Made by a program: the position numbers and the translations under genes. Below, piece by piece: positions 49,913 to 53,206 of a stretch of 64,000 bases of DNA. The notes below the pieces were generated by a model. That model was not told where the DNA came from and did no database searches. It was given only the letters and a program-made list of their open reading frames with translations. How positions within the stretch are numbered: position 1 is the stretch's first letter; each line of letters begins with the position of its first letter. This DNA is from an uncultured Chloroflexota bacterium (GTDB taxonomy: Bacteria; Chloroflexota; Anaerolineae; UBA4142; SHND01). The stretch is taken from positions 1 to 64,000 of the forward strand of contig CALMZO010000256.1 in NCBI GenBank assembly GCA_937870825.1, written 5' to 3'.

Positions 49913-49956
49913 GACGACGCGAACGCGTGACAGCGTTCGCGTCGTCTTTTTTTTTC
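49913..49956 (+). terminator. Strong Rho-independent terminator
   Basis: GACGACGCGAACG (49913-49925) pairs perfectly with CGTTCGCGTCGTC (49934-49946), followed by ten T. Confidence 0.92.
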
Positions 49957-50209: not shown

Positions 50210-50971
50210 ATGAGTTTATGGTCTCGCATTATGCTGTTGTTTCAAGCCAAGAGCCACGCCGCGCTGGACCGCGCTGAAGACCCGCGCGAAATGCTGGACT
50301 ATGGCTATACCCAACAACAGGAGTTGCTCCGCAAAGTCAAACAGGGGCTGATTGAAGTCAGCACGTCCAAAGCGCAGCTGCAACAGCAAGTTGAAAAATT
50401 GCGGACGCGAATTCCGCAATTGGAGGAACAAGCGCGGCGCGCGGTTGCGTTGGAACGCACTGACCTCGCGCGCGCGGCGTTGGAGCGAAAACAGACTGCG
50501 CTCGCGGAACTTGCAGGACTTGGGCAGCAGGTTGGCGTTGTAGCGCAAGAAGAAGAAAAACTGACACGCGCAGTACAGCAATTGTCCGCGCGCATTGAAG
50601 AATTTCGCACGCGTCGCACAGTGATGTCCGCGCGGTACTCTGCGGCAGAGGCGAAAATCCGTGTGAGTGAATCGCTTTCGGGAGTTTCCAACGAACTCGC
50701 GGACTTGAGCATGGCGCTCGGGCGCGCGGAAGAAAAAACGGAACGTTTGCAAGCGCGCGCGGCGGCGCTCGACACGTTGATTGAAGGCGAAAGTTTGGCG
50801 ATGAACGGACAATCCGGTGACCGCGTGGAACAAGAGCTGCGCGTGTTCATCACCAAACAAACTGTCGAACAAGAACTCGCCGCGCTCACGGCAGAATTGC
50901 AAGCAGGCAACGCGCGCGCGGCGATTGCTAGTCAAAGTGAGGGCTCGCACACGTCATTTCGAACAGAGTGA
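50210..50971 (+). CDS. PspA/IM30-family membrane-associated protein 1
   Basis: 253 residues, almost entirely coiled-coil. N-terminal MSLWSRIMLLFQAK with an amphipathic helix, then DPREMLDYGYTQQQELLRKVK, matches the PspA/IM30 pattern. These proteins form ESCRT-III-like assemblies on the inner face of the membrane and protect it under stress. The C-terminal residues (SEGSHTSFRTE) are encoded by a dispersed palindrome. It opens a four-gene module with a paralogue at 52493. Confidence 0.88.
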   Translation: MSLWSRIMLLFQAKSHAALDRAEDPREMLDYGYTQQQELLRKVKQGLIEVSTSKAQLQQQVEKLRTRIPQLEEQARRAVALERTDLARAALERKQTALAELAGLGQQVGVVAQEEEKLTRAVQQLSARIEEFRTRRTVMSARYSAAEAKIRVSESLSGVSNELADLSMALGRAEEKTERLQARAAALDTLIEGESLAMNGQSGDRVEQELRVFITKQTVEQELAALTAELQAGNARAAIASQSEGSHTSFRTE

Positions 50972-51020
50972 CAAGTCTCGGGCTTTCCGCGCGAGATTTC
51001 TCGCCTCCGCTCGAAATGAC
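50953..51020. repeat. GTCATTTCGA...TCGAAATGAC dispersed palindrome
   Basis: 10-bp outer arms (50953-50962, 51011-51020) and inner arms (GACAAGTCTCG / CGCGAGATTTCTC). It includes the stop codon of the upstream gene. Confidence 0.75.
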
Positions 51021-51055
51021 AGTTGCGCAGCGCTTGATGAACAAGGAGGAGTGCA

Positions 51056-51676
51056 ATGAACAAAAAGGATAATGTTCCGAATGTTTTGTCAGAACAAGCG
51101 CAAGACCTCGCGCACGGACAAGTTGTCGTGGTCATTGCGCGCTGGATTCTCGTCGTCGCGGGACTCGTGCTGATGTTATGGCTGCCCGCGCCGATTGAAC
51201 AACTGCGTGTGCAAATTTTGTTTATCCTGCTTTTGGCAATCGCGAACTTTTATTTGCACGCGCAGCTGCTTATCAAACGCCCGACGGTGGAATTGGTGGC
51301 GTATGGCGCGAGCGCGGCAGACATGACGTTGATAACGATTCTCATTCTGCTCAATGGCGGATTGAAATCGGACCTGTACATTTTTTATTTTCCCGCGCTG
51401 CTCGCGGTCTCTGTCGCGTTTTCCACGCGCGCGGCATTCGCTTTTGGCGGCGTGGTGCTTGTCTACTATGCCGCGTTGTGTTTCGTGAGCGGAATTGCCG
51501 CGCGTGATTTGAACGAAGCAAATTTGCAAATCATTCTGACGCGTTTGTTGATGCTGGCAGCAGTGGTGTTTTGCGGCAATTTGTATTGGCGTATCGAACA
51601 AAATCGTCGCCAAGCGGCGCAAGAAGCGAATCAAGCATTGCCCATCGAAACGTTGGGCGCAGTGACTGGAAAATAA
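51056..51676 (+). CDS. Six-helix membrane protein 1 of the PspA module
   Basis: 206 residues. A short cytoplasmic N-terminus (NVLSEQAQDLAHGQVVV) is followed by six membrane helices and a cytoplasmic tail of about 25 residues. Helices 4-5 (LYIFYFPALLAVSVAFSTR) and the overall plan look like the sensor half of a histidine kinase whose kinase domain is absent. AAGGAGG lies before the ATG. It is a paralogue of the protein at 51877 (shared AQ-N/D-A...GQVVL-IARW start, FYLHA-LI-KP, IFY-P-LL pattern). Confidence 0.75.
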   Translation: MNKKDNVPNVLSEQAQDLAHGQVVVVIARWILVVAGLVLMLWLPAPIEQLRVQILFILLLAIANFYLHAQLLIKRPTVELVAYGASAADMTLITILILLNGGLKSDLYIFYFPALLAVSVAFSTRAAFAFGGVVLVYYAALCFVSGIAARDLNEANLQIILTRLLMLAAVVFCGNLYWRIEQNRRQAAQEANQALPIETLGAVTGK

Positions 51677-51698
51677 AAATCAAAAGCGAAAAGAGTCG

Positions 51699-51870
51699 AG
51701 GATGTACGACACACACAGGCGCGAAATGAAAACGCAGGTGTGGTAAAACAAATTTCAAATTTGTCGCACATCTTCAAGGAGTTGAAGATGTGCGACCCGC
51801 ACACCCACGCCGAATGAAAATGTGGGCGCGGTAGGACAAATTTGAAATTTGTCGTACATTTTCAAGGGAG
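51699..51870. repeat. Tandem duplication of a palindrome-bearing unit
   Basis: Two copies of about 85 bp with period 88. Each carries ACAAATTT(C/G)AAATTTGT (51748-51764, 51836-51852). At the junction a perfect 15-bp stem, GTCGCACATCTTCAA and its complement, spans 51763-51796. Confidence 0.85.
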
Positions 51871-51876
51871 CGAATC

Positions 51877-52482
51877 ATGGAACAGGTACGCACTCTCGCG
51901 CAAGAAAACGCAGAGGACATTTTTTTCGGACAAGTGGTGCTGATTTGGGCGCGCTGGTTTTTCATTCTCGCAGGCATCGTGCTCACACTTTGGACGGCAA
52001 CCTCGACGAATGAAATCACGTTCAGTGTTTTGTTTGTCGTCGCGTTGATGGCAATGAATTTCTTTTTGCACGGACGCCATCTGATTGAAAAACCTGCGAA
52101 CGCGAAATTGATTCTCGTCGCGGCGATTCTTGACCTCCTCATCATCACCGCGATTGTCGCGACATGGGGCATTCGCATCGGTCTGCAGAGTCAATTCTTT
52201 ATCTTTTACTATCCGATGCTGCTCGGCTTTGCGTTCGTTTTTCCGCGACGCGCCACAGTCCTCTACACAACAGTCACACTCATCGCGTATGCGGCAATTT
52301 GCATCGTCGTCTCACCGGAAATTCTTGGCAGCATGGGCGACATCAAACTGCTCATCATGCGGCTCATCACGCTCGCGGCGATTGGCGGCTTGGGAACATA
52401 CTATTGGCGCATTCAACGCGAACGCCGACGTATGACACGCAATCAAGATGTGACAGGATTTCGAAATCCTGTCACGTCTTGA
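51877..52482 (+). CDS. Six-helix membrane protein 2 of the PspA module
   Basis: 201 residues with the same layout as the protein at 51056: N-terminal TLAQENAEDIFFGQVVLIWARW, six helices, and a basic tail (YYWRIQRERRRMTRN). The last residues (DVTGFRNPVTS) are encoded by a perfect palindrome. It lacks any catalytic domain. Together with its paralogue it could anchor or signal to the flanking PspA proteins. This role is inference. Confidence 0.72.
   Translation: MEQVRTLAQENAEDIFFGQVVLIWARWFFILAGIVLTLWTATSTNEITFSVLFVVALMAMNFFLHGRHLIEKPANAKLILVAAILDLLIITAIVATWGIRIGLQSQFFIFYYPMLLGFAFVFPRRATVLYTTVTLIAYAAICIVVSPEILGSMGDIKLLIMRLITLAAIGGLGTYYWRIQRERRRMTRNQDVTGFRNPVTS
52445..52480. terminator. 36-bp palindrome at the end of the second membrane gene
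   Basis: AAGATGTGACAGGATT, TCGA, and the complement (one G-T pair). It ends at the stop codon. Without a T-run it may act as a processing site or weak terminator before the second PspA gene. Confidence 0.6.
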
Positions 52483-52492
52483 CCGAACGCGC

Positions 52493-53206
52493 ATGGCTTC
52501 TCTTTTCAAACGCGTTGGAAAGATGACAAAGGTCTGGCTGAACGATTTGCTCGAACCCGCCGAGGACCCGCGCCAGACCTTTGCCAATTCAACCCAACGT
52601 CCACCAGAACTCTTGGAAAAGGTTCGGCACGCGCTCGGCACACTTGCCGAATCGAAAACACGTTTGCAAACTCGAATGGACGAATTGCGCGCGCTGCTGC
52701 CACAGTTGCAGGAACAGGCGCGGCGCGCGTTGATGCAAGAACGCGAAGACTTGGCGCGTCGCGCGCTCCAACGCCGCCAACTCGCCATCGTCGAACTCGC
52801 CGCGTTGGAACAACAATGGAATGAGCTCGCGCGTGAAGAACACAGTCTCGCGCGCATCGAGCAGCGGCTTGCCACACAAGTGGAAAGCATCAAAGCGCGA
52901 CAACAATTGCTCGCCGCGCGTTATTCGGCGGCGCAAGTGCAGGTGCAGATTAACGAAGCGATGGCGGGATTGTCTGATGAACTCGCCACATGGGGGAACG
53001 CGTTGGAACACGCCGAACAAAACACGGAGCGAATGCAGGCGCGCGCGGCGGCGATGGAGCAACTCGTCGAAACTGGCGCGCTCGACGTTTCAAACTTGCA
53101 ACTGCCCGACATGCTTGAAAAGCAGCTGACGAATCTGAACATGGAGCAAAACGTTCAAGCACAGCTCGCATCGTTGCGGCAAGAGTTGAGCGACGAATTG
53201 CAATAA
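52493..53206 (+). CDS. PspA/IM30-family membrane-associated protein 2
   Basis: 237 residues, coiled-coil throughout, aligned with the protein at 50210. It has the shared blocks LPQLQEQARRAL, DLARRALQRRQLAIVEL, RYSAAQVQVQINEAMAGLS and AEQNTERMQARAAAMEQL. The N-terminus MASLFKRVGKMTKVWLNDLLEPAEDPR differs and keeps the amphipathic helix plus EDPR (key LLEPAEDPR). The pair of PspA proteins may form mixed polymers. It is the last gene of the module. The next gene has its own promoter. Confidence 0.85.
   Translation: MASLFKRVGKMTKVWLNDLLEPAEDPRQTFANSTQRPPELLEKVRHALGTLAESKTRLQTRMDELRALLPQLQEQARRALMQEREDLARRALQRRQLAIVELAALEQQWNELAREEHSLARIEQRLATQVESIKARQQLLAARYSAAQVQVQINEAMAGLSDELATWGNALEHAEQNTERMQARAAAMEQLVETGALDVSNLQLPDMLEKQLTNLNMEQNVQAQLASLRQELSDELQ

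Follow-up and report, generated by a model that had tools for sequence, protein, structure and literature searches.

Four open reading frames on the + strand of the window (the whole 64,000-nucleotide stretch of DNA analysed here, from an uncultured Chloroflexota bacterium) form two paralogous pairs, in the order PspA1 (50210..50971), TM1 (51056..51676), TM2 (51877..52482) and PspA2 (52493..53206), with lengths of 253, 206, 201 and 237 aa in the ORF list. PspA1 and PspA2 belong to the PspA/IM30 family (PF04012, ESCRT-III superfamily), matched over the whole domain and above the cut-off in both proteins (E 6e-26 and 3e-19, respectively); they share 42% identity (E 1e-52), PspA2 being the more diverged. 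TM1 and TM2 (33% identity, E 3e-38) are stand-alone, sensor-like membrane proteins, each with six hydrophobic segments in the hydropathy profile. The module of two duplicated pairs described in the initial annotation is confirmed by the coordinates, strand, Pfam matches and identities, and the four-gene observation is both real and conserved across genomes.

A terminator-like hairpin with a T run, found by consensus scan upstream of PspA1 (49925..49942, + strand), may end the preceding gene and so give the module its own transcription start, but this is weak evidence, since the region holds nine terminator-like sites against 6.8 expected by chance. The region contains no Rfam element. The intergenic region between TM1 and TM2 (51677..51876) carries tandem palindromes, which the initial annotation suggested might set expression ratios. 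They are dispersed genomic repeats, since matching sequences occur on ten further contigs of the genome (three of about 100 bp and 85-99% identity), and the TM1-TM2 gap in all other modules is only -20 to 81 nt; the palindromes are therefore rejected as a regulatory part of the system. Further palindromic repeats lie at 50946-51027.

The window genome (7.2 Mb, 446 contigs) encodes a third PspA on another contig, and a profile search of it found no further relative of TM1 or TM2. The third PspA (L032:6344-9236, on G000:C209) adjoins an ORF that appears SPFH-like by eye, and constitutes a separate, more usual PspA neighbourhood.

The PspA family profile matches Vipp1 and PspA chains of solved structure (E down to 8e-20). 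The AlphaFold model of PspA2 (pLDDT 76.7) has the alpha0 helix, long helical hairpin and C-terminal helix of the family, and each of its 12 PDB matches at E <= 0.001 is a Vipp1 or PspA structure (best E 6e-7). The alpha0 of PspA is its membrane-binding helix (PMC12358876). Its amphipathic moment in the window is 0.29 for PspA1, whose helix is only weakly amphipathic, and 0.56 for PspA2; the same order, PspA2 above PspA1, holds in 12 of 12 four-gene modules, which are related and not phylogenetically independent.

The nearest relatives of TM1 and TM2 are the six-helix sensors of HisKA_3 histidine kinases, and by sequence the two proteins are classed as stand-alone relatives of that sensor, with a match below the Pfam cut-off. 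Against 6TM_PilS (PF25323), TM1 scores 17.0 bits (E 0.005) where the cut-off is 27, and even a weak match is seen in only three of the 16 family members. Pfam searches of TM1 and TM2 found no HisKA, HATPase or other kinase domain, and the proteins end soon after helix 6; their description in the initial annotation as sensor halves of histidine kinases that lack the catalytic domain is borne out. Among solved structures the TM proteins have no match by sequence, and by fold the best E is 0.8. In the AlphaFold model of TM1 (mean pLDDT 75.7, a moderate value) the helices span residues 10-42, 48-72, 79-99, 106-119, 124-149 and 154-194, and helix 6 is predicted, at that moderate confidence, to run about 20 residues into the cytosol; TM2 has a basic tail after helix 6.

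Several residues are invariant across TM1 and TM2, namely an Arg-Trp before helix 1, an Asn-Phe, and a Tyr and a Pro after the turn between helices 3 and 4. The segment before helix 1 of TM2 carries the motif ED[ILV][FY][FY]GQ in 17 of 17 orthologues, and the corresponding segment of TM1 in the four-gene modules keeps [DE]L in 12 of 12 and [YFH]GQ in 10 of 12. In two TM1 proteins of family f77 (L084 and L087) the N-terminus is extended by a segment that contains a W.WDG..W-like pattern. The homologous six-helix membrane part is shared with the HisKA_3, PilS and RegB kinase sensors, and the kinases also have the RW before helix 1, but TM1 and TM2 differ from them in having no phosphorylation or ATPase domain. 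RegB senses quinones through a GGXXNPF heptapeptide (PMC10525716). At these positions TM1 mostly keeps the GG and has S in place of N, and TM2 lacks the first G; the motif thus lends no support to RegB-type quinone sensing as the input.

The TM pair is present in 17 genomes including that of the window, in a search that covered the window's relatives, its class and phylum, one other family and the phylum of one match, together with a scan of named genomes (in which the two window TM proteins gave no match as queries, but the TM2 family alignment did). The carriers belong to the Chloroflexota families coded f1 (the window's), f37 (three genera), f72 and f77 (two genera), and further include the Chloroflexota MAGs KW1-S05_108 and B38T1B5 and a genome labelled Candidatus Neomarinimicrobiota TS1B10-1. 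As judged by tblastn annotation and gene spacing, the order PspA1-TM1-TM2-PspA2 occurs in twelve loci including the window. Four genomes, all of one genus (g160), have TM1-TM2-PspA2 only, without PspA1, and in one genome (G652) a contig break falls inside the module, so that TM2-PspA2 lie on one contig and another contig terminates in a PspA. PspA2 directly follows every TM1/TM2 pair except where the contig ends, and the genes abut or overlap in four loci (L083, L084, L087 and L088). The arrangement is thus conserved in 17 genomes, well beyond chance expectation. Had the membrane proteins occurred mostly without PspA neighbours, the proposed association would have failed; the opposite was found, no pair on a long enough contig being without PspA2. 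The TM profile has 36 matches in the carrier genomes: 35 fall within such modules, and the remaining one is the sensor of a kinase adjoining a module.

The genome G764, which holds locus L036, has a second copy, PspA1-TM1-TM2 (L160 = G764:C72, L095), whose contig ends shortly after TM2 and whose TM1 has an N-terminal extension of roughly 90 residues. The module on a contig of a Neomarinimicrobiota-labelled genome (L034) is the only one among 245 genomes searched in that phylum, and reflects either horizontal transfer or a mis-binned contig.

The TM proteins are missing from the window genome's five relatives in the same genus, so the function of the module is not universal in the lineage. The gene flanking the window module is not conserved in the genus. 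In seven genomes (G501, G646, G652, G664, G676, G762 and G763) the pair in the module constitutes the only PspAs; five of these belong to f77 and lack a PspC match.

In the maximum-likelihood tree, TM1 (support 94/94) and TM2 (100/98) each form a clade, the two joined with support 97/98 and placed beside the sensors of HisKA_3 kinases (94/92). Three rows labelled as kinases (L036_HK2, L095_HK and L095_HK2) are TM proteins, and relabelling them gives clean TM1 and TM2 clades. In the PspA tree, PspA1 (99/98, including the second copy in G764) and PspA2 (100/99) are sister clades. With a separate clade for each of the four proteins, the trees place both duplications far back, show the genes to be co-inherited and contradict a recent local duplication. 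One duplication predating the split of these lineages best explains each pair. The missing TM proteins in the genus mates and the patchy distribution make subsequent loss or horizontal transfer likely.

The initial annotation reported that the usual Psp partners are missing. This stands for the module, which contains no PspB, PspC or PspF and so does not pair PspC with PspA as the classical PspABC-PspF system does. For PspC it also stands for the window genome, where no match lies above the cut-off (22.1 bits versus 25), and for seven of the 16 other module genomes (six of family f77, and G764), in which PspC was not detected; it does not stand for the rest, which encode PspC away from the module. 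The window neighbourhood has no histidine kinase or response regulator of the LiaFSR type, and no SPFH gene of the PspA-YdjGHI type is found in the module or among the window neighbours. Directly upstream of one module only, and on the same strand (L036:4091-6014), are genes for a HisKA_3 kinase whose six-helix sensor is a homologue of TM1 and for a regulator of the NarL type, which leave room for an added transcriptional branch.

Compared with known systems, the module resembles E. coli PspA/PspB/PspC-PspF in combining a PspA effector with membrane partners reporting on the envelope, but shares none of PspB, PspC and PspF. LiaS, the kinase of the Lia system, and the relatives of TM1 and TM2 are of one general type. 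B. subtilis LiaIH-LiaGFSR also combines a PspA homologue with a membrane anchor, LiaI (PMC9239133), but LiaI is small and there is one PspA, and the window module lacks a kinase, LiaF and a regulator. In B. subtilis pspA-ydjGHI, PspA is likewise encoded with two different membrane proteins, YdjG and YdjH, which interact with one another and are required for PspA to reach the membrane (PMC8581546). That system has one PspA only and needs the SPFH protein YdjI, which has no counterpart in the module, and YdjG contains a zinc ribbon (PMC9239133), whereas TM1 and TM2 have none. The PspA/Vipp1 dyads and triads of cyanobacteria place diverged PspA paralogues in one neighbourhood (PMC11237479), but adjacent or fused, whereas here a conserved membrane pair lies between them. 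Surveys of PSP systems cover PspA dyads and band-7, CesT/Tir, PspAA and two-component partners, and the available parts of both do not mention this arrangement, which their supplementary material may list (PMC11237479, PMC9239133). Searches of the open literature likewise brought up no description of it, though subscription papers may list it, and the module is apparently an undescribed variant of PSP systems.

How PspA learns where and when to assemble is understood only in a few model bacteria. The unit described here is compact and conserved, joins a pair of PspA paralogues to a pair of sensor-like membrane proteins in common inheritance, and is the sole source of PspA in several genomes. 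Gene order, co-inheritance, the missing kinase domain and the precedents of YdjG/YdjH and LiaI lead us to favor the reading that TM1-TM2 is a membrane sensor/anchor for the kinase-independent recruitment of a PspA polymer with two subunits, at a probability of about 0.5. The interpretation in the initial annotation is supported in part: the conserved module and the sensors without a kinase hold up, the regulatory palindromes do not. The module would then be a self-contained PSP-type unit for membrane maintenance. Like the sensors of kinases, TM1 and TM2 would pair within the membrane. Their ends on the cytosolic side (the ED..[FY]GQ motif and the basic extension of helix 6) would drive no kinase and would serve as docking sites for PspA1 and PspA2. 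In response to a change in the bilayer, a composite two-subunit polymer would be recruited or released; within it PspA2 would bind the membrane more strongly, and PspA1 would be the better conserved of the two. Contact between the TM proteins and the PspAs is suggested by gene order, and the TM1-TM2 pairing, the composite polymer and the nature of the stimulus are likewise what we infer.

The genus without PspA1 offers a lead on which partner docks where. Its TM1 has DEASGQ or GLADGQ before helix 1, while the TM2 motif is kept, and this joint loss of PspA1 and the TM1 motif points to possible docking of TM1 with PspA1 and of TM2 with PspA2. As a single evolutionary event, it is a lead and not proof; in two loci (L083 and L036) PspA1 is kept although the TM1 motif is partly changed.

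Eukaryotic and archaeal ESCRT-III proteins build composite polymers, and the module makes it testable whether bacterial PspAs do so too, and whether PspAs can be acted upon by a sensor domain that has no kinase. We entertain only tentatively the further possibility that a receptor pair derived from kinase sensors directly controls a two-subunit, ESCRT-III-like polymer, so that sensing would lead to membrane repair without any intervening kinase, regulator or step of transcription.

TM1 and TM2 might instead be static anchors of PspA, with a likeness to kinase sensors that is inherited and nothing being sensed. Plain membrane anchors suffice elsewhere, as with LiaI (PMC9239133) and YdjG/YdjH (PMC8581546), and the departure from the RegB quinone motif fits this as well, but the invariant residues in the membrane part of both paralogues seem more than anchoring needs, and we consider it somewhat unlikely that they only anchor. 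That TM1 and TM2 are accessory to a separate kinase whose sensor is homologous to them, and so report PspA status with transcription as the main output, is suggested by the kinase and regulator at L036. The 16 other module genomes have no further protein bearing the sensor domain (E <= 0.001), so such a partner kinase does not belong to the system in general, which makes this role unlikely. It is improbable that the pair binds or moves a lipid or quinone while the PspAs protect or shape the surrounding membrane, an activity that would suit the conserved residues inside the membrane part and an ORF ending two bases before PspA1 in one locus (L089:4998-5963, glycerophosphodiester phosphodiesterase-like by eye), since TM1 and TM2 match no enzyme or transporter family and have kinase sensors as their closest relatives.

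Other genes are found upstream of some modules. Five loci of family f37 (L030, L031, L035, L038 and L089) have a long ORF upstream on the opposite strand, with a similar N-terminus in each; that in L089 has an AAA/NACHT-like match below the cut-off. At L088:9349-12195, the divergent region upstream of the module encodes AAA_16 plus a LuxR-type regulator, a candidate for local control.
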